In this document: positions 2,459 through 61,772 of the stretch, one piece after another
Layout: each line of letters opens with the position of its first letter
Position numbering within the stretch: the stretch's first letter is position 1
Source of the DNA: Anaerolineales bacterium
Lineage (GTDB): Bacteria > Chloroflexota > Anaerolineae > Anaerolineales > Villigracilaceae
Assembly: GCA_016744335.1 (NCBI GenBank)
Contig: JADGEO010000006.1
Coordinates: 37,000 to 100,999, forward strand
DNA: 64,000 nucleotides
Direction: 5' to 3'
The notes under the pieces: generated by a model
Database searches by the model: none
Seen by the model: the letters and a program-made list of their open reading frames with translations, nothing else
Told to the model about the DNA's origin: nothing
Translations under genes and position numbers: made by a program

Positions 2459-3736
2459 ATGAAAAGAAACTCCCCTCTCATACTCCTCCTCTACGCAACG
2501 CTCTTCATCGCTTTAATCAGCATGAATGGTGAAGTTTTAGCGTTAGCCATTCCTCTAGCACTTTATTTGCTATCGGGGTTGTATTTCGCGCCCCAAGAAA
2601 TCAATTTGCAAATAGAACGAGAGTTGAGCGCAGAACGCATCACACCCAAGCAAGAAGTTGTCGTTAAGATAAAAATCACCAATCTTGGCTCTTCTCTCGA
2701 AGAACTCTTTTTAGAAGACCAAATCGCTCCAGCTTTAAAGATAATCAAAGGTGAAACTAGTTTTTTCTGCACGCTCAAAAAAGGAGAAACAGTTGCATGG
2801 AGCTACACCTTAACGGGTCCACGTGGTAGTTTTCTCTTCAACGGCATAAAAGCGATTGCCAGCGACCATTTCAATATCGCAGAAAAAGAAAAGGTTATAG
2901 TAACAGAAGGGCAAGTTTTCATCATTCCCCCTTTTACACGCATTAAAAATATCAAAATTCGCCCTCACCAAACACGAGCCTACGCGGGCAATATCCCTGC
3001 ACGGCTTGGGGGTCCCGGCACTGATTTTTACGGATTACGCGAATACCAGCCCGGCGATTCTCCGCGCTGGGTCAATTGGCGTGCCAGTGCACGGCATCCG
3101 CAAGCCTTATATTCTAACGAATATGAGCAAGAACGAGTCGCCGATGTAGGCATCATTCTCGATGGTCGCGAATCCGTCAATATGGGCGAGAGCGGCAACT
3201 CGCTCTATGAGCATAGCGTCATCGCCGCCGCGGCACTTTCCGATGCTTTTATTGCTTCAGGCAATCGTGTTGGAATGCTTCTTTATGGTCAAACCCTGCG
3301 CTGGACATTCCCAGGCTATGGGCATATTCAACGCGAGCGTATTATGCAATCCCTTGCTCGCGCTGAGATTGGCGATAGCTCCGTTTTTACCGATCTTATG
3401 CGTATTCCCTCGCAATTATTCCCCATAAATTCGCAACTCGTTCTCATCTCCCCGCTTAAGAATGACGACTATGATACCCTTGTCCACTTGCGGGCGCGCG
3501 GCTATCAGGTGATGGTCATTAGCCCAAATCCCGTCAGCTACGAGCGTGCAAATTTACCCGACACAGCCAATGTCCGTCTTGCAAGTCGTATTATTGGTAT
3601 GGAGCGGCACATGTTTATGCTCAAACTCAAACGCGCTGGGGTCCAAGCCCTTGATTGGGATGTGAATCAGCCCCTCGACAGACTTGTCAAAAGTCGTCTA
3701 GGTCGTCCCCCTGCGTGGCGAAATCCACTTAAATAA
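2459..3736 (+). CDS. DUF58 domain protein
   Basis: This protein of 425 residues has two hydrophobic N-terminal segments, an extracytoplasmic beta-rich region, and then the DUF58 signature around GTDFYGLREYQPGDSPRWVNW followed by a von Willebrand-like fold containing IILDGRES. DUF58 proteins are the usual partners of MoxR ATPases and are membrane anchored. The frame is open upstream to 2423, but that stretch lies in the repeat flank, so the ATG at 2459 is the more credible start. It was probably once adjacent to moxR, before the GxxExxY unit arrived between them. Confidence 0.9.
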   Translation: MKRNSPLILLLYATLFIALISMNGEVLALAIPLALYLLSGLYFAPQEINLQIERELSAERITPKQEVVVKIKITNLGSSLEELFLEDQIAPALKIIKGETSFFCTLKKGETVAWSYTLTGPRGSFLFNGIKAIASDHFNIAEKEKVIVTEGQVFIIPPFTRIKNIKIRPHQTRAYAGNIPARLGGPGTDFYGLREYQPGDSPRWVNWRASARHPQALYSNEYEQERVADVGIILDGRESVNMGESGNSLYEHSVIAAAALSDAFIASGNRVGMLLYGQTLRWTFPGYGHIQRERIMQSLARAEIGDSSVFTDLMRIPSQLFPINSQLVLISPLKNDDYDTLVHLRARGYQVMVISPNPVSYERANLPDTANVRLASRIIGMERHMFMLKLKRAGVQALDWDVNQPLDRLVKSRLGRPPAWRNPLK

Positions 3737-3741
3737 ACTAT

Positions 3742-3779
3742 GATGCTCTAGCCGCCGTCCCCGGCGGCGATATTTTAGG
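3742..3779. repeat. Half copy of the GCCGTCC-CGGCGGC double-hairpin repeat
   Basis: The short sequence gctctagccgccgtccccgg, continuing to tattttagga, forms one hairpin. It is the left half of a longer two-hairpin repeat found complete at 50241-50339, 56130-56226 and 62351-62450. Confidence 0.65.
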
Positions 3780-3785
3780 AAAAAC

Positions 3786-4280
3786 ATGATCAAATTCAGC
3801 ACCTTCTTCACCTTATGGATGGGGACTCTCGCACTGGGATTCGCCTATCAGCAAGCGGATTTAACGAACTACGCGTGGGCGGCAGTCAGCATCGGTGCGT
3901 TCTGGACGTGGGGCTTGCTCCAGTTTAAAAAACAGATTCCCCGCATCGGCATGGTACTGCTCTCCTTGCTCTCTATCATTGGGTTGTTCAATGATCTCCC
4001 TTTTGGCTGGATGCTGGCTGGCGCGCTCAACGCCCTCCTTTCTTACGATTTGAGCAACTTCCACCAACGTCTACGTTTTGCCTCAGAAAGTGAAGATACA
4101 AAATTGCTTAAACGCGTGCACCTCACACGTCTCAGCATCATCACCCTGCTGGCGTTAGCCCTTAGCACCACCGTGATCTTCTGGCAAGCAGAATTTACCC
4201 TCGAATGGGCGATATTCTTAGTCCTAGGCGGGATTTGGGGGATCTCTTTGTTGGTAGGATGGGTGAGACGAGAAGCGTAA
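3786..4280 (+). CDS. Small multi-pass membrane protein, unknown
   Basis: This 164-residue protein has about five hydrophobic segments (near 7-20, 28-45, 56-80, 118-136 and 140-158) and a short charged loop around residues 95-115. I do not recognise the family. It begins 49 bases after the DUF58 gene, on the same strand, with AGGA upstream of ATG 3786, so it may be the last gene of that operon. The repeat half-copy at 3742-3779 lies between the two. Confidence 0.6.
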   Translation: MIKFSTFFTLWMGTLALGFAYQQADLTNYAWAAVSIGAFWTWGLLQFKKQIPRIGMVLLSLLSIIGLFNDLPFGWMLAGALNALLSYDLSNFHQRLRFASESEDTKLLKRVHLTRLSIITLLALALSTTVIFWQAEFTLEWAIFLVLGGIWGISLLVGWVRREA

Positions 4281-7053: not shown

Positions 7054-8724
7054 GTGTTAAGTTTGAAAAAAACAATCTATTCGAAATTGCAAAAACCGAG
7101 TGTCTTGGATAACAATATGGATTTCTACAATATCGCCGCTTCATTAGATGAATATGCAAAAAAAACTCCCTACCAAGTTGCTATTTATTTTCCGAGTGGG
7201 CGCTCAAAATATACGGCGTTGAGTTTCAAACAATTAGCCGAACTCAGCGACCAATATGCACACGGATTTGCCGATTACGGCATCACAAAAGGCGAGCAGA
7301 CATTGGTGATGATTCGTCCCTCGATAGATTTTATCGCGGTCGTTTTCGCCTTGATAAAAATTGGCGCAGTACCGATTTTGATTGACCCGGGCATGGGCAG
7401 AAAATCCTTTTTACAATGCGTGGCAGAAACCGAACCCGTAAATATGATTGGTATCCCCGCCGCACATATTTTGCAATTTTTCATCAGAAAACCTTTTGGA
7501 ACTGTGAAACGGCAGGTCACGGTCGGGAAGCGTCTTTTTTGGGGCGGAAAAGAATTGAGCGAGTTGAAATCGTCAAAAAGGTCGAAGTTTGAGGTAGAAA
7601 AAACGCTGACCACAGATGAAGCGGCAGTTGCCTTCACGTCAGGAAGCACGGGGATTCCGAAAGGCGTTATTTATGAGCAGGGGATGTTCAGGGCGCAAGT
7701 GGATTTGCTCAAAAACGCGATTGGAATCAGAGAAGGCGATATTGATTTGCCCGGGCTGTATATTTTTGCTTTATTCAATCCTGCACTTGGCGTAACGACC
7801 GTGATGCCCGATATGGACGCTACAAATCCCGCAAAGCTAAACCCCGCCTATCTCGTTGAAGCGATAGAAACCTTTGGCGTGACACATTCTGTTGGCTCGC
7901 CAACGATCTGGAAAATTGTGGGGAAATACTGCGAAGAAAAGAATTTAACGCTCAACTCCATGCAAAAGATATTGATGATGGGCGCACCTGTTCCCCCATC
8001 TTTAATTGGGCGATATGAAAAAATCATGCCCAATGGAGAAGTTTTCACACCTTTCGGTGCAACAGAAGCTATGCCCCTAACGCTAATTGACGGAAAAGAA
8101 ATTCTCGGAGAAATAGCCGATTTGAGCGACAAAGGCGCGGGGATGTGCGTGGGTAGAGTTTTGCCGGGGATTGATATTCGGGTTATCCAAAAAGATGATC
8201 GCCCCATCGCAAAATGGACTGATGCACAAAAATTGCCGCAAGGCGAGATTGGCGAAATAGTCGTCAAAGGCGCAGTCGTGACGCGTGAATATCTGCACAG
8301 ACCTGAGCAAACAGCCAATGCCAAAATTAAAGAAGGGGATGATATTTGGCATCGTATGGGCGATGTCGGCTATTTTGATGAGGCTGGGAGATTATGGTTT
8401 TGCGGCAGAAAAGCGCATATCGTTGAGACGGATGTGGGGACACTTTATCCCGTTCAGGTGGAGGCACTTTTTAATCAAATCGCTGGCGTTCATCGCACAG
8501 CGTTGGTTGAGAAAGGGAAAAAAGCTGTGCTGGTGATAGAGATGCAAAAAGATGTTGAGAGTATCGCTAAAAAAGACATCGCAGAAAAAGCACAGGGAAT
8601 TATTGAAGAAAATAATCTTTCAGAGAGTATTAGCGAAATACTATTTTTGGCAGATTTTCCTGTAGATTTACGTCATAATGCGAAGATTAAGCGTGAGGTG
8701 ATAGCGGGGATGGTTGGAGGATGA
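7054..8724 (+). CDS. oleC: OleC-like beta-lactone synthetase (AMP-forming ligase family)
   Basis: This 556-residue member of the acyl-adenylate ligase superfamily has the P-loop-like AFTSGSTGIPKGV, GATEAMP (motif A5) and GDVGYFDEAGRLWFCGR. The segments LIDPGMGR, GMFRAQVDLL and DLPGLYIFALFNP are characteristic of OleC, which converts beta-hydroxy acids to beta-lactones using ATP. OleB removes CO2 from the lactone. OleA and OleD, which make the hydroxy acid, are not in this window. The start is uncertain: GTG 7054 is given; TTG 7063 and ATG 7117 are alternatives. Confidence 0.88.
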   Translation: MLSLKKTIYSKLQKPSVLDNNMDFYNIAASLDEYAKKTPYQVAIYFPSGRSKYTALSFKQLAELSDQYAHGFADYGITKGEQTLVMIRPSIDFIAVVFALIKIGAVPILIDPGMGRKSFLQCVAETEPVNMIGIPAAHILQFFIRKPFGTVKRQVTVGKRLFWGGKELSELKSSKRSKFEVEKTLTTDEAAVAFTSGSTGIPKGVIYEQGMFRAQVDLLKNAIGIREGDIDLPGLYIFALFNPALGVTTVMPDMDATNPAKLNPAYLVEAIETFGVTHSVGSPTIWKIVGKYCEEKNLTLNSMQKILMMGAPVPPSLIGRYEKIMPNGEVFTPFGATEAMPLTLIDGKEILGEIADLSDKGAGMCVGRVLPGIDIRVIQKDDRPIAKWTDAQKLPQGEIGEIVVKGAVVTREYLHRPEQTANAKIKEGDDIWHRMGDVGYFDEAGRLWFCGRKAHIVETDVGTLYPVQVEALFNQIAGVHRTALVEKGKKAVLVIEMQKDVESIAKKDIAEKAQGIIEENNLSESISEILFLADFPVDLRHNAKIKREVIAGMVGG

Positions 8725-17487: not shown

Positions 17488-17496
17488 TTCTTTAGG

Positions 17497-17590
17497 CGGG
17501 AGTGCATGGGAGTCGAACCCACCACGGCTCGCAACGCGACCCGTCACCGATGTTGAAGACCGGGAAGCCCACCGGGACTTAACCACTCCC
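17497..17590 (-). tRNA. selC: tRNA-Sec (anticodon UCA)
   Basis: Read on the minus strand, the gene starts GGGAGTG and ends CACTCCCG (7-bp acceptor stem; the eighth pair is G-G). It has a six-pair D stem AAGTCC/GGGCTT with loop CGGT, an anticodon stem CCGGT/ATCGG around CTTCAAC with anticodon TCA, a long variable arm (ACGGGTCGC/GCGAGCCGT) and a T arm GTGGG-TTCGACT-CCCAT. The long D stem, long variable arm and UCA anticodon are hallmarks of bacterial tRNA-Sec, which decodes UGA as selenocysteine. CCA is not encoded in full. selA, selB and selD are not in this window. Confidence 0.92.
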
Positions 17591-37783: not shown

Positions 37784-38917
37784 TTATTGAGAAGATGCTT
37801 CTTTCTCATCTTCCATTAGGGGTAAGTTGCTAGCAATTAGCCAGAAGAGAATGATGCCAATGGCGGCTAATCCGGCTGTGCTGAGAAGTTCTTGCCAAGT
37901 TGGGTAGTATTGTGCGCCAGCTAACCCAACGAAACTTACATTGAAGCGGTGCATGACCAAGCCGCCAACCGATAAAGCGGCGGCTCTGAAAATCCATGGG
38001 CGACGTTTATTGATTTTAGGAATGAGCAAAATGATGATGGGTAAAATATACATTGCGTTCTCTATGAGAAACATTTTACCTTGATAGCTATTTTCAAACA
38101 TTAAGCCCAGTTCACCTGCGTAGGCAAGCTCCCCTAATTTGATGAGAAGGGTGATGCTAAGGAATACGAGGAGGTATCTTCCTAAACCTGAGAATACACC
38201 TTTTTTGAAGTGCCAATCTTTGAAGAAGCGCATACCTAATAAGCCTACCAATATCGCCATCGCAAAACCTGAAGTTAAGGCTGAGATGAAGAATATGACG
38301 GGGAGCATAGGTGTGTACCAAAGCGGGTGTAGTTTTAGAGGCAAGGCAAGAGAGATAGAGCCTAGTGAGGATTGATGCCCTGAGGAGAGAATGATGCCCG
38401 CGGCAACAATGGGGATTTCAAAAAAGTGTATTCCCTTTAGCATTCTATTCCACTCTAATTTTTTGAGTAACATGGGCAGAAACTCGAGGGTTAGGATCAA
38501 GAGATAGGTGATTACACACATCCCAACTTCAAAAAGAGGGGAGTGCGTATTCCAATAGAAGAAGTAGTGCCAGAGACGTTCTGGTCTACCTAACTCTACG
38601 GTGAGGGCTGCTGCGGCTGAGATATATCCTACAAAGCCACTAATCAAGGCAACGCGAGCGATATTATGATATTTATAGCGGTGGAACATGTGGGTGAGTG
38701 CTGCCAAACTGAATGCTGAACCAGAAAACGCCATGACGGCGAGGTCGAAGCTGATCCAGAGGCCCCAGGGACGTGTGTCTGAGAGGTTAGTTACGGCGCC
38801 AAGTCCGTATATCCAGCGAGTTCCCATGGCAAAAATGCCAAGTAGAGCTACTACAGCAAGAAAAAGGATAAAAAGGGGGACTTCTTTTTTAATTTTCGGG
38901 ATAGTTATGGTTGTCAT
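37784..38917 (-). CDS. HybB/NrfD-type quinone-interacting membrane subunit
   Basis: This 377-residue protein with about ten membrane helices has HybB-like segments: TRPWGLWISFDLAVMAFSG, LELGRPERLWHYFFYW-type sequence at about 108-122, and SSGHQSSLGS. HybB/NrfD proteins pass electrons between menaquinone and a periplasmic or extracytoplasmic Fe-S protein. It is the third gene of a unit with a HybA-like ferredoxin and an octaheme cytochrome, overlapping the former by 4 bases. No hydrogenase large subunit is near, so its partner is the cytochrome. Confidence 0.93.
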   Translation of the reverse strand: MTTITIPKIKKEVPLFILFLAVVALLGIFAMGTRWIYGLGAVTNLSDTRPWGLWISFDLAVMAFSGSAFSLAALTHMFHRYKYHNIARVALISGFVGYISAAAALTVELGRPERLWHYFFYWNTHSPLFEVGMCVITYLLILTLEFLPMLLKKLEWNRMLKGIHFFEIPIVAAGIILSSGHQSSLGSISLALPLKLHPLWYTPMLPVIFFISALTSGFAMAILVGLLGMRFFKDWHFKKGVFSGLGRYLLVFLSITLLIKLGELAYAGELGLMFENSYQGKMFLIENAMYILPIIILLIPKINKRRPWIFRAAALSVGGLVMHRFNVSFVGLAGAQYYPTWQELLSTAGLAAIGIILFWLIASNLPLMEDEKEASSQ

Positions 38918-39837
38918 GCTGTCTCTCCTTCTTCTTTGCTATACTCCTCTTGAATCTGCGCTCTTTCTTCACTAGACATCGTTGCTCTGTAGGCTAGTGC
39001 CATAAGGCCGGCGGCACCGCCGAAGATATAGGGCACTGCTTTCGTAGCGGTATGACCTTGCTCAGGTATCGATTCTTCTGTTAGGGGAGGCAATCCGATA
39101 TTCTCGAAGGCAACGCCTGAAAGGATGAGGAAGGAGGTTCCTCCACCATCATGTTCGCCAAAGACGCGATCTTCATGGTATTTTCCAGGATTTGCGGCAA
39201 TTCTTTCTTTTGCAATTTCAAGTAATTCACCACGTGTGCCAGAAATCAATGCGCCGGGGCTACAAGCTAAGGCGCAGGCGGTTCCATCTTGGCGGTCGTA
39301 GCAGAGATCACATTTTGCAATGAGTGGATAGGCTTCTGACCAATCGTAAGCGGGAACACCGTAGGGGCAAGCCTGCATACAATAACGGCATCCGATACAT
39401 TTGAGTGATTCGTATAGCACAGGTCCGTTAGCTGTTTTTTCTAATGCGCCTACAGGGCAAGAAATTACACAAGCTGGTTCTACGCAGTGCATACACTGGT
39501 ATTTGCGGAAGGATTCTTCTGAACCATCTTCGCTTTGATAAAGTTTAATGAGTGTGAAGGTATGCCCTGAGAGATCGTCAACATCTTCTTCTTTGAGCTG
39601 ATTATCTTCTTTGCAGGCTAATTCACATTCTCTGCATCCAACGCAGTAGGTGGCATCGTATAGCATTGCTTTTTGGTCTTCAAGTGGAATATCTCCGCCA
39701 CCAGATGAAGCTAAAGCACTATTGGTTAATGCTCCGGTGGCTGTGAGACCACCTGCTACAGCGCCTGCTACTTTTAGAAAGTCTCGGCGAGTAAGATCGC
39801 TTATGCAAGTATTGCATGTGTTATTTGTTTTAGTCAT
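38914..39837 (-). CDS. HybA-like 4Fe-4S protein with Tat signal and C-terminal anchor
   Basis: This 307-residue protein has a Tat signal (LTRRDFLKVAGA) and four 4Fe-4S cluster motifs, including CVGCRECELACK, CMHCVEPACVISCP, CIGCRYCMQACP and CDLCYDRQDGTACALAC. A C-terminal membrane segment lies at about 270-285. HybA/NrfC proteins move electrons between a membrane quinone module and an extracytoplasmic redox enzyme. It overlaps the octaheme cytochrome gene by 8 bases and the HybB-like gene by 4. Confidence 0.94.
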   Translation of the reverse strand: MTKTNNTCNTCISDLTRRDFLKVAGAVAGGLTATGALTNSALASSGGGDIPLEDQKAMLYDATYCVGCRECELACKEDNQLKEEDVDDLSGHTFTLIKLYQSEDGSEESFRKYQCMHCVEPACVISCPVGALEKTANGPVLYESLKCIGCRYCMQACPYGVPAYDWSEAYPLIAKCDLCYDRQDGTACALACSPGALISGTRGELLEIAKERIAANPGKYHEDRVFGEHDGGGTSFLILSGVAFENIGLPPLTEESIPEQGHTATKAVPYIFGGAAGLMALAYRATMSSEERAQIQEEYSKEEGETA

Positions 39838-41533
39838 CGTTTTTTTCCCTTCGGATTATGTGGCGAGTTCCAGCAACTTCAAAGAAGCCGAGAACTGCAA
39901 TAATGCCAACTAGCCAGAGTTTCCAATCGTTGCTCTGAACAGGGTGTGATACCAATTCGCTTAGGTTAGATTGGGACGTTGCGATGTCGGGGTAGGATGC
40001 GGGGTCCCAAGTTAATTGTTTGGCACGGTCTTCAGAATAGCCTAAGGCGGTGAAGTCTATACGTCCACCATTGGGGTCGTGACATTCTTGGCATTGTACA
40101 GTTTCGCTAGCGGGAGCAACCATGTGTGTGATGGGCCAGAAGAATTCGGTTTCTACGAAGTCATATTCACCGCTATAGTCTGCACCAGCACTTTCCATAC
40201 CTGCCGCTATTGCGGTATCCCAATCGAAGCTTTTCCAATAAGCGGCATCATCTTTGCCAAAAAGGTGGGGAATAGCGAGGGTGTTATTGCCACTATCGTA
40301 GGGTTGTTTGCCTGTAAAACGCTTGACGGGCCAAATTTTTGCTTCTGGATCGTTGATGTCGCCCATGAAGCTGTTGACAGAAACAACCTGTGTTGGGTCT
40401 ATGGTATCGCTAACTAAAAGGTATTCAGCAGTGCCATTGAACCAAACGTAGTCGGGAACAACATTTTCACCCCAAGTAAAATCGCCTTTTAAGGTATTGT
40501 AGTCTTCGGTGCTAATTTTTTCACCATCGGCAGTAAACTCGCCTGCGGTTGACCAATCCCAGGTCATTTTGGTGGGCATCCCACCACGTGCAAATTCGGG
40601 GATATGGCAAGATTGACAGGCAAGAGTTTCGGCATGTTGGTTGGTAAGTTCATCTTCATGCGGGGCTACATCGTGGCAATCTACACAACTTTTTACATTC
40701 TCGTCATGTTCGTAGCGACTGCCGCTAACAGCATGTTCTTCGGTAATATGACATTCTTGGCATGAGAAGTTTAAGCCTTCAACATCCATGTGAACATCAA
40801 GAGCGTGGTCGGGTTCAAGCAAAGACGAATCAATATCGCCATGTTTTACTGCATCACCGCCACCGCCATAAGCATGGCATTTGAGACAGTTTGAGCGGCT
40901 GGGTGTACCGATATTTTGGGCAACAAAGGTTAGGTCAACCGGGTTTTCGTCAAGAGCTTCGTTGCCTGTGTAACCTGCGGGCATACCAGCGGCGGGACCA
41001 GGTTTCTTATATGTCCCTGTTGTGTCGTGGCAGATGAGACAATCTACGTTTTCTTGGGCAGAGAAATCGAAGCTATCATCTTTCCAGCCATAGCCAACAT
41101 GGCAAGAAGTACAACGAGGCTCATTGGAACTGGTAGCAACACAGAAATTGTTGAGTTCGTTCTTTTTGCCTATTGTTTGCCCGGTTGTTTCATTCACATA
41201 TTCCCATGTCCAATGTGTTGTGTGCATAATTTCATTGGCAGAGTCAATGTGGCAGGTTAAGCAGGCTTTGGTTAAGTCTTGAGGCGTTTCAAAATCTTGT
41301 TGTAAAATTTCAAAAACGCTATGGTCTATGCCGCCTTGCGATGGAGCAGGGTTCCCTAGTTGATAATTTATTTTTTCATCAACATTAGGGGCAACTTCTT
41401 GGTCACCCTTTTCTAGCTCAGCGGTAGGAACTTGGGCAGATACATTGCCGTTAAGCAATAAGCCAGTCACAACTAAAATAGCCGCGACGACAAACCCAAG
41501 CGTAAACCAAGTTGAGTTCTTTTTATGGGGCAT
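39830..41533 (-). CDS. Octaheme c-type cytochrome (OTR-like)
   Basis: This 567-residue exported protein (signal anchor at 10-30, C-terminal helix near 538-556) has eight CxxCH heme motifs beginning at Cys 91, 141, 165, 216, 258, 283, 306 and 481. MHTTHWTWEY and CQSCHIPEFARGG match the tetrathionate reductase family octaheme cytochromes. In vitro OTR reduces tetrathionate, nitrite and hydroxylamine; its physiological role is unsettled. With the HybA and HybB partners it would form a quinone-linked terminal or sulfur-reducing module outside the membrane. Confidence 0.92.
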   Translation of the reverse strand: MPHKKNSTWFTLGFVVAAILVVTGLLLNGNVSAQVPTAELEKGDQEVAPNVDEKINYQLGNPAPSQGGIDHSVFEILQQDFETPQDLTKACLTCHIDSANEIMHTTHWTWEYVNETTGQTIGKKNELNNFCVATSSNEPRCTSCHVGYGWKDDSFDFSAQENVDCLICHDTTGTYKKPGPAAGMPAGYTGNEALDENPVDLTFVAQNIGTPSRSNCLKCHAYGGGGDAVKHGDIDSSLLEPDHALDVHMDVEGLNFSCQECHITEEHAVSGSRYEHDENVKSCVDCHDVAPHEDELTNQHAETLACQSCHIPEFARGGMPTKMTWDWSTAGEFTADGEKISTEDYNTLKGDFTWGENVVPDYVWFNGTAEYLLVSDTIDPTQVVSVNSFMGDINDPEAKIWPVKRFTGKQPYDSGNNTLAIPHLFGKDDAAYWKSFDWDTAIAAGMESAGADYSGEYDFVETEFFWPITHMVAPASETVQCQECHDPNGGRIDFTALGYSEDRAKQLTWDPASYPDIATSQSNLSELVSHPVQSNDWKLWLVGIIAVLGFFEVAGTRHIIRREKNDD

Positions 41534-41862: not shown

Positions 41863-42804
41863 TTACTCAAAAACTAAGGCTTTAGACCCGGGTCCAGAAA
41901 TGGAAGCTGGTTGCAGATTTTTTATCATCTTCCAAAAGGCAGTTTGGGCAACGGTAGTAGAGCGTCCTACATGTCTGCCAATATAGATGTCACGGCAGAT
42001 GTTTAAGCCGTGTACAGGGATAACGGCAATATCTGGTTGGCGCATTCCGGCAACAACGGTATTAGAAACAAATCCTACACCTAAGCCCTCTTGCACGGCA
42101 AGAGAAATTGCTTCAGCGTTACCTAGCGTAAGTAGGGTATTGAGGTCGCGTATAGAGAAGTTGACCGTACTGAGCGCATCTCTAACGGTAGCAAAGGTGC
42201 CCGATTCTTCTTCGCGTAATATGAAGTTTGCATCTAGCAATTCTGTGGGGGTAATAGATCCTTGTTTTGCCCAAGGATGATCTAAAGGGGCAATGAGCAC
42301 AACGGGGTCTTTCATGAAAAGCCGAAATTTGGCATTTGCACAACTCTGACCGTGGCTATGGCTAGAAAGTGCAAAATGTACCAAGCCATCGCAAAGCATT
42401 TCTATAGATTTAGCTTGTGGGGCAACTTGGCAAGTTACTTTAACCAAAGGGTATTGATTATGGAAACGTGCTAATAACTGGGGAAGTACATATTTGCCTG
42501 GTGTGGTGCTACAGCCTACTTTTAGGTGTCCGAAAACTTCGCCATTGAGTGAAGCCATCTCTTCTTCTATATGTACAGACTGGGTAACCATCTCTCTTGC
42601 TAAGGGAACCAAGGCTTCGCCTGCATCTGAGAGATGTATTTGTCGCCCAGTGCGCTCAAAGAGGGGCATATCAAAATGTTGCTCTAACGATTTTATATGC
42701 TGGCTTACACTGGGCTGAGACATGTGCAAAATTTGCGCTGCCTGCGTAAAGTTTAATGTTTCAGCGGCAATTAGGAAGATATTTAGTTGGTGGGCATCTA
42801 GCAT
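41863..42804 (-). CDS. LysR family transcriptional regulator
   Basis: This 313-residue LysR protein has the winged helix NFTQAAQILHMSQPSVSQH and effector domain HLKVGCSTTPGKYVLPQLL, EEESGTFATVR and LTLGNAEAISLAVQEG. It resembles CysL and selenium-metabolism-associated LysR proteins and is a paralogue of the one at 24348-25274. It is divergent from the selenocysteine cytochrome gene with a palindromic site in between, so it probably controls that gene and itself. ATG 42804 is chosen; an extension to 42837 would run into the palindrome. Confidence 0.93.
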   Translation of the reverse strand: MLDAHQLNIFLIAAETLNFTQAAQILHMSQPSVSQHIKSLEQHFDMPLFERTGRQIHLSDAGEALVPLAREMVTQSVHIEEEMASLNGEVFGHLKVGCSTTPGKYVLPQLLARFHNQYPLVKVTCQVAPQAKSIEMLCDGLVHFALSSHSHGQSCANAKFRLFMKDPVVLIAPLDHPWAKQGSITPTELLDANFILREEESGTFATVRDALSTVNFSIRDLNTLLTLGNAEAISLAVQEGLGVGFVSNTVVAGMRQPDIAVIPVHGLNICRDIYIGRHVGRSTTVAQTAFWKMIKNLQPASISGPGSKALVFE

Positions 42805-42818
42805 AGTTATTCCTTGAG

Positions 42819-42839
42819 ATGTGAGTGTGATACTCACAT
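42819..42839. promoter_or_regulatory. Candidate LysR operator
   Basis: ATGTGAGT-gtgat-ACTCACAT is a perfect palindrome with 8-base arms, 15 bases upstream of the LysR start. Its dyad and position fit a LysR autoregulatory and divergent activation site. Confidence 0.55.
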
Positions 42840-43117: not shown

Positions 43118-44575
43118 ATGCCAAGAAAAACCCGTACGACCTTATTCATCATTCTGGCTTTCCTGTTCCTGGGATTGACAGGATGCCAGGGTGCGACTGA
43201 GGTTCATGAAGAAGCAACTGCTGAACCAGCAGAAGAAGTTGCTCCTGCCCCTAAAGATGCTTCTGTTATGAGTGAAGAGACAGTAGAAGAGAACTACTGC
43301 TTGGATTGTCATGGCGATAAAGACCGCCTCATCGACACCGCGAAACCATTCGTTGAAGTTGTTTCCGAAAACGAAGGAGCTGGTTGAGGTGGAGAAGTGG
43401 CTCCGTTGGAGCCTTGGGAAAAAGTTTTAGTAGATGCAGAAATCTTCCCGACTACTGCACACGGTCAAATTTCTTGTCTCGAATGTCATAAAGGTATTCA
43501 AGACCCAGATAAAGAAGTAGCCCACACCGATTTGGTGGTTCAACCCAGTGAAGATGCTGGCAGTAACTGTAGCGAATGTCACCCCGTGATTTCAAATATG
43601 TTCCCCGACAGCTTACATGCGGCACAAGATGGTTACTGGACACAACTAAACGCACGAAGCACACCAGAAGATCACCCTGAAATAGAAGAAATGTTTGGCA
43701 ACCACTGTGAATCTTGTCACACCAGTTGTGGCGATTGCCACGTTAGCCAACCTCGTTGGACAGGTGGCGGATTTGTTAGTGGTCACGTTTTTGAAAAAGA
43801 ACCATCCATGACTAAAAATTGCACCGCTTGTCATGGTAGCCGCGTTGGCAATGAATATCTTGGTAAACACGAAGACATTAATGCAGACGTTCACTTTAGA
43901 CAAGGTCGCATGAAATGCGTAGATTGCCACACAGGTCATGAAATGCACGGGCAAAACACTGGCTGTTCTTATTGCCATGCAGAAATGCCCGAATCAGAAT
44001 TTGCACCATCTGATCATCGTTACGACGATGACGATCTGCAATTTCCCACCTGTGAATCTTGTCACTGGGATATTGCCAACGGTGAGAGCGAAGTCGAAAT
44101 GCACCAACAACACGGCGATAAGCTCTCCTGCCAAGTTTGTCACTCAGTTAGCTATACCAGCTGTGACGGATGCCATGTTCAAATTAGCGAAGAAACGGGC
44201 AACCCCTTCTTCACTACTGAAGGCGATTACCTCACCTTTATTATTGGGCGCAATCCCATCCAGAGTGAGCAAAAACCTTACGAATATGTTACCTTACGCC
44301 ACATCCCTGTAGCAAAAGATGCCTATGATTATTATGGTGAAGATTTGCTATCGAACTTCGATGCGCTTCCCACCTGGGCATATAGCACGCCGCATAATAT
44401 CCAACTTAATACACCGCAGACAGAATCTTGTAACGCTTGTCATGGTAATGCCGAACTTTTCCTCACCGCCGATAAGGTTGCAGAAGAGGAACTCACCGCC
44501 AACGCCTCAGTGATTGTGGAAACAATTCCACCCGCTGTAGGAGAAATGGAAGCGGATGAAGAAGGAGAAGAATAA
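43118..44575 (+). CDS. Dodecaheme lipoprotein cytochrome with selenocysteine at TGA
   Basis: A single frame runs from ATG 43118 (AGAGGAGA upstream) to TAA 44575, interrupted only by TGA 43385-43387. Read as selenocysteine (residue 90) the product has 485 residues: lipobox LTGC (Cys23), an acidic linker, and 12 CxxCH motifs beginning at Cys 61, 120, 151, 197, 204, 235, 267, 283, 312, 338, 349 and 438. One heme motif lies before and eleven after the TGA, so both parts belong to one protein. A bSECIS-like hairpin follows the TGA. It resembles ExtKL-type multiheme cytochromes. Likely role: extracytoplasmic electron transfer to sulfur or selenium compounds. Confidence 0.88.
43385..43413 (+). promoter_or_regulatory. 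UGA Sec codon with bSECIS-like hairpin
   Basis: TGA 43385-43387 is followed after 11 bases by GGCTCC (43399-43404), loop GTT, and GGAGCC (43408-43413): a perfect 6-bp stem. The loop begins with G-U, and lies 17 bases after the TGA, inside the 16-37 base range known for bacterial SECIS elements read by SelB. Confidence 0.8.
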
Positions 44576-45002
44576 ATATGGACTTTAGGGGTTGAGACTA
44601 CAAAAGTCTTTAAGACTTTTGTAGTCTCAACCCTCACGATGATGAAAAACCGCGACGCTCTTAAATTTGGACTTGGGTGCTAGCACCCTGTAGCAAGGGC
44701 TTTAGCCCTTAGCTTTTCTGACAAATAATCGCTGAAGCGATTACTACAAGGAGTGCTTGAGCAGAAGACGCTTACGTTGGCAAGAATGTTGACCGAAAGC
44801 AAGCAAGCTAAAACAAGAGCGAATCGGTATTATATCTATCCCAAAAAAGTACAGTGACATTTTGTCACACTAGAAAAAACGGGCGTAACGCAACATCCAT
44901 GTTGCCAGCCCACAAACTGCGAGACAAATCTCGCATCATAGTAACGCAACATTCATGTTGCAAAGCGAGATAAATCTCGCGTTATGATACAAGGAGAACC
45001 AA
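44576..45002. repeat. Intergenic region with long palindrome and acgcaac repeats
   Basis: gggttgagactacaaaagtc... (44589-44610) pairs perfectly over 22 bases with 44612-44633 around one base, just after the cytochrome stop; it could terminate transcription. Two copies of gtaacgcaaca(t)c/tcatgttgc and gcgagataaatctcgc palindromes follow (44882-44990), directly before the rhodanese gene. No gene is visible. Confidence 0.75.
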
Positions 45003-46784
45003 ATGAAGAAGAATAGAATTTTAACCCTGCTTTTCACCCTAGTTATGGTGTCTAGCGTAATCCTAAGTGCCTGTTCACCGGCACCCGTAGAAGAGGCTCC
45101 TGTAGCCGAAGCACCTGTTGAAGAAGAAGCTCCAGCAGAAGAAGCACCAGTCGTTGAAGAAGAGCCAGAAGTTGTTGAAGGCGATATGGACGCAACCTTC
45201 GGGGCAATGCTTGCTGAGATGGCCGCGTATAACACCATCAAAGCTGATGCTTTGCTCGCAGAAATGGCAGAAGATGCTCCTCCTTTCTTACTTGATGTTC
45301 GCAGTGCTGATGAACTCACAGAAAGTGGACATATTGAAGGCGCTACTCATATTGCTTTAGACCAATTAGGCGAGCACACAGACCTGCTCCCTGCACTTGA
45401 TACACCCATTGTTGTTTATTGTGGTTCTGGTTGGCGTGCAACTATTGGTATGACTGCTCTTCACGGTATGGGCTTCACCAATGTTCGTGCGCTCAAAGCT
45501 ACTTTTGCTGATTGGAAAGAATCTGGAAACCCTGTCGCCGAAGGTATTCCCGAAGCAATGGTCTTAGATATTGTTGAAATTCCTGAAAACTTGCTTACCG
45601 ATATTGGTGCCGCAACTGCTGCCGCCAAAGACATGGGCTTGCACTGGGGCGTTCTTCCCGCCGAAGATTTGAATACAAACCTTGCTGAAAATGCAGATTT
45701 AGTTGTGATTGATGTTCGCCGTCAAGAAGAAGTTGATGAAAAAGGCACTATCGATGCGCCTAATTTTGTTCACATTCCGCTTGAAGATTTTGTTGCCAGC
45801 CAAGATATGTGGCCTTCAACCGATACCCCCGTTACCGTATATTGTGGTAGTGGACACCGCTCAACAATGGCTATGACCATGCTTCTCTCTTATGGTTATG
45901 CAGATGTAACAAGCCTTCAGGGTGGTTTTGGTACCTGGAAAGATGCTGGCTATGCTACAGTTGGTGGCGTTGCTACTTTAGCTGATAATTACAGCACGAT
46001 GCTTGCCAATATGGAAGGCTATAACACCGTGAAAGCCGATGGGCTTTTGGTTGAAATGATCGAAGATACCCCTCCTTTTATTTTGGATGTGCGTAGCGCA
46101 GAAGAATTAGAAGAACAGGGTCATATTGAAGGTGCTTTCCACATTCCTTTGACTGAATTAGCACAACATGTTGATTTGCTTCCTAGCTTTGATACGCCCA
46201 TTGTTACTTATTGTGGCTCAAGCTGGCGTGCAACCATTGCAATGACTGCCCTTCATGGTATGGGCTGGACAGATGTTCGTGCGTTGAAAGTCGCATTTGC
46301 TGATTGGGTCGCTGATGGCAATCCTGTTGCCGATGGCATCCCCGAAGAAATGGTCTTAGATTTGGCTACAGTGCCTGAGAATATCCTTGCCGCTGTTGAT
46401 CCCGCTATGGTTGCCGTAAAAGATTTAGGCACTCATTGGGGCGTAAAACCCGCCGATGATTTGAACCTTGCGCTTGGTGAAAACTCTGACCTGATTCTCA
46501 TTGATGTTCGCCGTGCAGAAGAACTCGTAGAAAATGGTGTGATTGCAGTTGTAGACCAAGAAATGATTGCTCTTCCCCTTGAAAGCCTCGTTGCTGATTC
46601 TAGCATGTTGCCCGCCGACAAAGACGCAGAAATTGTTGTCTATTGCGGTAGCGGACACCGCTCTACAATGGCAATGACCATGCTCCTCACCGAAGGCTAC
46701 TCCAATGTCACCAGTCTCCAAGGTGGGTTTGGTAGCTGGGTAGAAGCCGGTCTCCCCGTTGCAGACTTTGTACCTGCTGAATAA
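45003..46784 (+). CDS. Lipoprotein with four rhodanese domains
   Basis: This 593-residue lipoprotein (lipobox SACS, Cys24; Glu/Ala/Pro-rich linker to about 60) consists of four rhodanese domains with active-site loops YCGSGWRA (Cys140), YCGSGHRS (Cys281), YCGSSWRA (Cys404) and YCGSGHRS (Cys548). Domains 1 and 3, and 2 and 4, are most alike, so a two-domain unit was duplicated. Rhodaneses carry sulfane sulfur on the cysteine. It may pass sulfur or selenium to the neighbouring cytochrome, as ExtH-type rhodaneses beside multiheme cytochromes suggest. AAGGAG precedes the ATG. Confidence 0.93.
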   Translation: MKKNRILTLLFTLVMVSSVILSACSPAPVEEAPVAEAPVEEEAPAEEAPVVEEEPEVVEGDMDATFGAMLAEMAAYNTIKADALLAEMAEDAPPFLLDVRSADELTESGHIEGATHIALDQLGEHTDLLPALDTPIVVYCGSGWRATIGMTALHGMGFTNVRALKATFADWKESGNPVAEGIPEAMVLDIVEIPENLLTDIGAATAAAKDMGLHWGVLPAEDLNTNLAENADLVVIDVRRQEEVDEKGTIDAPNFVHIPLEDFVASQDMWPSTDTPVTVYCGSGHRSTMAMTMLLSYGYADVTSLQGGFGTWKDAGYATVGGVATLADNYSTMLANMEGYNTVKADGLLVEMIEDTPPFILDVRSAEELEEQGHIEGAFHIPLTELAQHVDLLPSFDTPIVTYCGSSWRATIAMTALHGMGWTDVRALKVAFADWVADGNPVADGIPEEMVLDLATVPENILAAVDPAMVAVKDLGTHWGVKPADDLNLALGENSDLILIDVRRAEELVENGVIAVVDQEMIALPLESLVADSSMLPADKDAEIVVYCGSGHRSTMAMTMLLTEGYSNVTSLQGGFGSWVEAGLPVADFVPAE

Positions 46785-61420: not shown

Positions 61421-61772
61421 CTACCTCAGGCTGGTCGGGCGATTGCGGAGCAGATTCTTCTGCTTCGAGGAAAGTCCGCACTTCGTAGGGCATGGTGCCG
61501 TGGAAAGCACGGGATGGAGAAATCTATCGGATCGGGTCACAGAAAATAGTAGCCTCACCCTTTAAGGGTGACGGTGATAGTGAAAAGGTGGTGTAAGAGA
61601 CCACCAGCATGTGCAGCAATGTGCATGGCTAGACAACCCTCACCAGAAGCAAGGTCAAGCAGAGACAATGAGCTGCCCGCTCCCAAGTCTCAGGTAGACT
61701 GCACAGATAGATAATCGCCAAGGGGATGAAAATCCCTGAACAAGATGCGGCTTATAGACCAGCCTGAGGCAT
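61421..61772 (+). ncRNA. rnpB: RNase P RNA, bacterial class A
   Basis: The catalytic RNA of RNase P, which cuts the 5' leader from tRNA precursors. Ends CCTCAGGCTGGT (61424-61435) and ACCAGCCTGAGG (61758-61769) pair as P1. The conserved core GAGGAAAGTCC lies at 61467-61477, and GATAGATAATCGCC and ATGCGGCTTATAGACC mark the 3' part. The length, about 350 bases, is normal. A promoter lies directly upstream; T-rich sequence follows. Confidence 0.95.

Follow-up and report, generated by a model that had tools for sequence, protein, structure and literature searches.

Introduction

A thioredoxin-like fold is shared by the majority of characterised selenoproteins, and a member of the octaheme tetrathionate reductase family that bears selenocysteine (Sec) is annotated in GenBank (PMC13188914). 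In this 2026 review, the table entries that mention cytochromes name three heme-related selenoproteins, namely ExtKL, a barrel of the GSU2204 type and a GenBank-annotated octaheme, and do not name the family described below (PMC13188914). ExtKL of Geobacter is a predicted Sec-containing multiheme c-type cytochrome, and its cluster, extHIJKL, also encodes the rhodanese lipoprotein ExtH (PMC6148476, PMC5877670). Deletion of ExtI impairs the reduction of selenite and tellurite in Geobacter, and ExtKL belongs to the same cluster (PMC5877670).

Here we analysed a stretch of 64,000 nucleotides from an Anaerolineales bacterium (Chloroflexota), hereafter the window, which encodes a predicted Sec-containing multiheme cytochrome. 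Like ExtKL, it is a multiheme c-type cytochrome predicted to contain Sec, and its cluster encodes a rhodanese lipoprotein; this is a likeness of arrangement and not of kinship. Whereas ExtKL is a pentaheme protein of Geobacter, the window protein comes from a different phylum and has 12 CxxCH motifs, 11 of them conserved. The initial annotation of the window had named ExtKL-type cytochromes as relatives, which was not borne out: neither the protein nor its own genome matched the ExtKL model NF040886 (cut-off 250 bits), and among 60 genomes the model exceeded its cut-off in none and gave sub-threshold matches in 28, the best at 34 bits. We therefore rejected kinship with ExtKL.

The octaheme family of model TIGR04315 is also multiheme and has a member encoded next door (39830-41533) that covers the whole model in one open reading frame (ORF), but the Sec cytochrome itself did not match this model (cut-off 375). 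Its sole NCBIfam match at E up to 0.001 was to the DmsE model TIGR03508, representing DmsE/MtrA-type decahemes, at 25.9 bits and thus far under the cut-off of 192.2; neither Sec nor a rhodanese is known to belong to the DmsE family. TsdA and SoxAX, mono- or diheme class I cytochromes with Cys, carry a sulfane adduct on a protein chalcogen beside the heme and serve us as a working analogy only. In the open PMC literature we found no description of the window's Sec cytochrome family.

Results

A multiheme cytochrome gene with one in-frame TGA

The gene and its elements are as follows.

43118..44575, + strand: predicted Sec-containing multiheme c-type cytochrome, predicted lipoprotein (485 aa, 12 CxxCH; translation with TGA as U)
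43184..43186, + strand: codon of the predicted lipidated Cys23 (lipobox LTGC; from sequence)
43385..43387, + strand: in-frame TGA, predicted Sec codon 90 (exact alignment column conserved)
43399..43413, + strand: bSECIS-like hairpin with a 6 bp stem and a GUU loop (fold; covariation; consistent with the model in PMC13188914)
43634..43636, + strand: Tyr173 codon, the conserved residue with the tightest link to Sec/Cys
43703..43705, + strand: His196 codon, ahead of the fourth CxxCH, with a weaker link to Sec

Translation confirmed that the frame is broken only by the TGA at 43385-43387 (residue 90) and otherwise reads through as 485 amino acids followed by a stop. CxxCH motifs are at residues 61, 120, 151, 197, 204, 235, 267, 283, 312, 338, 349 and 438, so that, as initially described, one lies 5' of the TGA and eleven lie 3' of it; Sec90 would sit between the first and second motifs in a Gly-rich loop. 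The proposed lipid anchor agrees with the lipobox LTGC at residue 23, and a lipobox-like pattern was present in 23 of the first 28 homologues. The description as a 12-heme protein holds for the motif count of the window protein but not for the family, since the motif at residue 283 is not conserved and the family core thus has 11 hemes. Among 122 Sec rows of the alignment, which are cut at the profile ends, 68 had 11 motifs, 40 had 12, 13 had 10 and one had 9. The family has 11 conserved histidines outside the motifs for its 11 conserved hemes. Pfam matches were to Cytochrom_c3_2 and Cytochrome_C7, and a profile search for a solved relative gave partial matches only, the best at 1.2e-5 over about 100 residues. 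Downstream of the gene, an inverted repeat of 22 nt without mismatches, its arms 1 nt apart (44589-44633), lies between the cytochrome and rhodanese genes and is followed by short repeated units at 44885-44985.

The TGA is conserved across homologous loci

Homologues were collected from several samples. A search of 100 genomes, the window's own included, returned 28 clear homologues, 27 of which have TGA at codon 90; L029, L030 and four weaker matches were dropped as distant. In a scan of named genomes, TGA occurred in 76 of the 79 loci that cover codon 90 among the best 80 of 180 relatives, although the query peptide overlapped the hairpin and hence favours Sec forms; all of these 80 read as Chloroflexota. 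A profile search free of this bias matched 77 of 396 genomes sampled class-wide, and further profile searches matched 83 of 400 order-wide and 13 of 400 phylum-wide; these three sets overlap and include a few distant matches. Twenty regions fetched later were chosen by hand (four without TGA, 13 with TGA from the order-wide set and three from the phylum-wide set), and 11 of them were already known. Two loci of the family, L108 and L114, come from cultured strains, Bellilinea caldifistulae GOMI-1 and Thermanaerothrix daxensis GNS-1. L109, L159, L205 and L206, in which the Sec column is missing, were dropped, as was L156, with 41 nt upstream only.

After removal of duplicates, TGA occupied the exact codon-90 column in 138 of 147 distinct loci, which excludes a chance TGA. 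Trees were computed from 129 dereplicated rows (122 with TGA) together with 16 of 17 full-length database proteins, leaving out P0095, which repeats L096. Seven of the 33 ORFs of at least 250 aa in the window terminate in TGA, showing that the genetic code is not reassigned.

The genome also encodes the decoding machinery, including the tRNA that the initial annotation had placed in the same window.

17495..17590, - strand: tRNA-Sec, anticodon TCA (ARAGORN; Rfam RF01852, 65.1 bits)

The genes selA, selB and selD, proposed as a check, were all found in the window's own genome, each over its cut-off. The selD gene (L039, G000:C46:69115-70047, - strand) has an in-frame TGA of its own and probably encodes a selenoprotein itself. 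Elsewhere in the window, a class A RNase P RNA lies at 61427-61770 (+).

A covarying hairpin follows the TGA

According to PMC13188914, a bSECIS has a loop of 3-9 nt, a stem of 4-16 bp, a G within the first two loop positions and a distance of 16-37 nt from the UGA. The window hairpin, GGCTCC-GTT-GGAGCC, agrees with this geometry as given there: its 6 bp stem (43399-43404 with 43408-43413) encloses a 3-nt GUU loop (43405-43407), which lies 17 nt from the TGA. Taken alone (21 nt), the hairpin folded with -10.3 kcal/mol (z = -4.1), and one of 200 shuffles was as good. In longer stretches the z-score was -1.0 for the 36 nt from the TGA and 0.06 for 61 nt. Folding energy, which is not exceptional over 36-61 nt, was therefore rejected as evidence for Sec, and the case for the hairpin lies in its conservation and covariation.

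An alignment of 131 distinct sequences, drawn from 137 of the 138 TGA loci (L050 was left out), was paired in 98.7% of 786 cells. Three of the six stem pairs vary on both sides, and double-sided changes were found in 56 cells versus 16.6 in shuffles. The covariation score was 0.230 compared with a shuffled mean of 0.065, and none of 500 shuffles, which do not keep relatedness, scored as high; sliding the pairing partners gave at most 0.038. The commonest stem change, G-C to C-G, replaces Ala95 by Pro and Pro99 by Ala, Val or Gly, swaps that selection on the protein alone would hardly favour. Two of the 138 loci, L170 and L172, have the TGA and lack the standard hairpin; they may use a different SECIS.

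Cys and other residues replace Sec in a minority of forms

We examined what stands at the Sec position where TGA is missing. Among the 120 listed of 2199 matched database entries, 17 are full-length, which requires a sense codon at this position, and four of these (P0006, P0007, P0033 and P0083) have Cys. The others have W, L, M, S, R, H or F, where P0022, labelled W, holds I in the alignment column. The remaining 103 of the 120 listed entries cover at most 81% of the query and are too short to include the UGA; three short entries that we inspected start after it, at the hairpin. Listed entries that bear a name are called hypothetical protein or sulfurtransferase, several of them thiosulfate/3-mercaptopyruvate sulfurtransferase.

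The initial annotation had named homologues with a sense codon other than Cys or Sec as a refutation; such codons, for Trp, Leu, Phe, Val, His and others, do occur in a minority. We read these as lost Sec function, because the intact rhodanese described below is absent wherever the neighbourhood is visible and Tyr173 is absent in 15 of 22 rows. On a quick tree, in which L155 and L157b sit on long branches, the Sec state changes at least 13 times, a count that gives no direction of loss or gain. Some cases look like recent losses of Sec, as judged from retained hairpins: the hairpin of L154 (TGG) is still that of its congeners L163 and L194, which have TGA, and L024/L102 (also TGG, and shorter by one codon) keep the stem with a compensatory closing pair. 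The contig of L157 carries two cytochrome copies (2603-3799 and 7414-8580, both - strand), of which one has TGA and the other a Phe codon, and its rhodanese is located near the TGA copy.

That the non-Sec forms arose because the Sec machinery was lost was not supported by selA, the gene examined here: of 38 genomes, two of them repeats of others, 37 have it, and so do eight of the nine distinct genomes included that carry a non-Sec form, all except G204.

Tyr173 is kept with Sec or Cys

Tyr173 was kept in 126 of 126 rows with Sec or Cys, including all four Cys forms, versus 7 of 22 rows with neither; L063 and L154 are among these seven, and 12 of the 15 losses were to Phe. Among the 75 columns whose conservation in Sec rows reaches 98% or more, Tyr173 was the most often lost after Sec itself, being kept in 37% of 19 rows with neither Sec nor Cys. 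Gly89, His196, Gly87, Glu98, Pro96 and Arg242 followed in this order in the same 19 rows, and the losses of Pro96 and Glu98, which lie inside the hairpin, may only reflect relaxed RNA constraint. Of eight independent pairs, an average of 5.6 showed Tyr173 tracking Sec, and none ran the other way (median p 0.03). His196 was present in 124 of 126 Sec/Cys rows versus 14 of 22 others; its pairs test was not significant, and we regard it as a suggestive candidate only for a second Sec-linked residue.

Eleven of 13 control columns (His 136, 167, 223, 259, 277, 329, 332 and 426, Trp420, Arg394 and Gly218) were lost in none of the 22 rows, while Trp100 was lost in one and Arg242 in five. The retention of the distal histidines implies that the heme wire is largely kept with or without the Sec site.

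A rhodanese gene accompanies the Sec form

The cytochrome gene has the following neighbours.

37784..38917, - strand: NrfD-type membrane subunit, presumed quinol-facing (Pfam NrfD, 84.3 bits)
38914..39837, - strand: 4Fe-4S protein, HmcB/HybA type (Fer4_11; NF045715, 236.6 bits, below the cut-off of 420)
39830..41533, - strand: octaheme cytochrome, tetrathionate reductase family (TIGR04315, 601.8 bits, cut-off 375)
41863..42837, - strand: LysR-type regulator resembling the selenium-metabolism-associated type (NF040786, 219 bits, below the cut-off of 250)
45003..46784, + strand: predicted exported lipoprotein with four rhodanese domains (Pfam Rhodanese, 4 stretches, 208 bits; sequence)

The octaheme, HmcB-like Fe-S and NrfD genes form a divergent cluster (37784-41533, -). 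Among the 80 named loci, the LysR cluster, called from sequence, was found in 67, and the NrfD, Fe-S and octaheme cytochrome clusters in 31-32, mostly upstream. The NrfD and Fe-S genes persist beside the non-Sec loci L063, L096 and L102.

The rhodanese gene at 45003-46784 is the next one on the cytochrome strand, and each of its four domains has an active-site Cys (YCGSGWR, YCGSGHR, YCGSSWR and YCGSGHR). A relative follows the cytochrome on the same strand in 71 of the 80 named loci. By a simple pattern, and with cut ORFs included, 28 of these 71 relatives have four active-site loops, 14 have three, 13 have two, one has one, one has six and 14 have none. Rhodaneses of two types occur, a four-domain type, mostly downstream, and a two-domain type, often upstream; the latter, with a signal sequence, was found upstream in 27 of 50 loci, in more distant members.

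Where the flanks on both sides reach at least 1.2 kb, all 105 distinct Sec loci have a rhodanese of one type or the other on the same strand within 4 kb, and with later loci included the count is 110 of 111; Sec loci with shorter flanks have one in 24 cases and lack it in nine. Nine new loci fetched later had a rhodanese in six of seven Sec and neither of two non-Sec cases. L227 (G781:C524), a divergent Sec copy from outside the class, has TGA and hairpin, yet no rhodanese was found within 4 kb, also by profile search; the same genome's L226 has one.

Conversely, an intact rhodanese was found in none of ten distinct non-Sec loci, of which L211 has 945 nt downstream only. L063 has a 94-aa single-domain remnant and L102 has two fragments in different frames; the Phe copy of L157 is 6.2 kb from the nearest two-domain rhodanese. 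In independent pairs, Sec and an intact rhodanese went together in 7 of 7 (p = 0.016) on a quick tree with the remnants of L063 and L102 coded as not intact; an earlier test, before L158, L211 and L212 were added and without L063, had given 5 of 5 (p = 0.06). In the sequences compared, Sec, intact rhodanese and, mostly, Tyr173 are thus jointly absent.

Discussion

The UGA at codon 90 is, on the sequence evidence assembled here, almost certainly decoded as Sec. The initial assignment is supported by the conserved TGA, a covarying bSECIS, the presence of selA, selB, selD and tRNA-Sec, and Cys in the four database proteins. Its rival readings, as a normal stop codon, a fault of the assembly or a Trp codon, seem extremely improbable. 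They could draw on TGG in place of TGA in L024/L102/L208, L063 and L154, on Trp being the commonest residue in non-Sec rows and on most database proteins among the matches listed being too short to span the TGA. They conflict with a TGA retained in nearly all distinct loci, a hairpin that covaries, a frame that stays open with CxxCH on either side, the unreassigned code and Tyr173, which is kept in four of four Cys forms and absent in five of eight Trp-labelled rows.

For the function of the protein, we propose that Sec and Tyr173 take sulfane sulfur from the rhodanese and that the heme chain reduces it, a mechanism whose probability as a whole we judge to be about even. The adjoining and probably exported rhodanese (45003-46784) would act as sulfur donor, its persulfide handing sulfane sulfur to the Sec90 selenolate as a selenenyl sulfide. 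The Sec90-Tyr173 pair, perhaps with His196, would form the handover site, in which Tyr173 might position or protonate the Sec-S adduct. Quinol would be the source of electrons, which would travel by way of NrfD, Fe-S and multiheme proteins into the 11-12-heme chain to break the Se-S bond and set sulfide free. The net run would be reductive, amounting to respiration of sulfane sulfur or polysulfide, a direction suggested by the adjacent NrfD gene and the octaheme tetrathionate-reductase-family protein. Ca. Desulfolinea nitratireducens and other named metagenome-assembled genomes are described as having genes for the reduction of sulfur or thiosulfate and of tetrathionate (PMC8359478). Against the proposed relay stand L227 as a Sec locus without rhodanese, L170 and L172 without a standard hairpin, the seven of 22 rows that keep Tyr173 with neither Sec nor Cys, the loss of Arg242 in five of 22, and the 14 of 71 rhodanese relatives in which the simple pattern, applied to cut ORFs as well, detected no active-site loop.

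The same genes could work in the opposite direction, the Sec cytochrome oxidising sulfide or thiosulfate-derived sulfur via the rhodanese and passing electrons to quinone. The gene linkage also fits oxidation, and rhodaneses and multiheme cytochromes operate in either direction. Moreover, Ca. Desulfolinea nitratireducens is among the organisms that might oxidise sulfide by Sqr (PMC8359478). It is apparently of the window's genus, as the cytochrome sequence context of G005, a genome labelled as the same genus, equals that of L060. We nevertheless consider oxidation unlikely, since the neighbouring octaheme tetrathionate-reductase-family protein and NrfD are usually read as reductive; NrfD complexes, for their part, run either way. 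The reduction of selenite, tellurite or another oxyanion, with the rhodanese handling the chalcogen product, is suggested by the adjacent LysR, which resembles a selenium-metabolism regulator, and by the effect of ExtI deletion in the cluster that contains ExtKL (PMC5877670). With no match to the ExtKL model, a LysR score under the NF040786 cut-off and a conservation whose breadth would better fit a common substrate than a trace oxyanion, this appears quite unlikely.

Sec90 might also serve without substrate chemistry, as an axial heme ligand or a redox switch that tunes electron flow, and its place in the Gly-rich loop between the first two CxxCH motifs, together with the somewhat Sec-linked His196 beside the fourth, is compatible with such a role. 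The tight gene link to a rhodanese points to sulfur chemistry, and the ligand role raised in the initial annotation, which we keep as a rival, finds no support in the histidines: the 11 conserved ones outside the motifs match the 11 conserved hemes, so that no ligand is obviously missing. We regard a role without substrate chemistry as quite unlikely, too. A functional pairing of Sec cytochrome and rhodanese gains support from the occurrence of a Sec multiheme cytochrome with a nearby rhodanese in two phyla, the cytochromes being united by no model used here.

The tendency of Sec, Tyr173 and rhodanese to be lacking in the same loci offers a testable handle on the role of selenium in a heme protein. 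More tentatively, and with somewhat less than even confidence, we suggest that the cytochrome represents a new type of molybdenum-free sulfane-sulfur reductase in which rhodanese persulfides pass their sulfur to a Sec wired to the 11-12-heme chain. The pair of rhodanese and Sec cytochrome would then have had two or more origins, one in Chloroflexota and one, as ExtH-ExtKL, in Geobacter. If this is true, selenium would do the bond chemistry and heme would supply electrons only. If Sec handles rhodanese sulfur, this cytochrome, encoded in many Chloroflexota, would represent a selenoprotein family that is widespread and has had no name until now.
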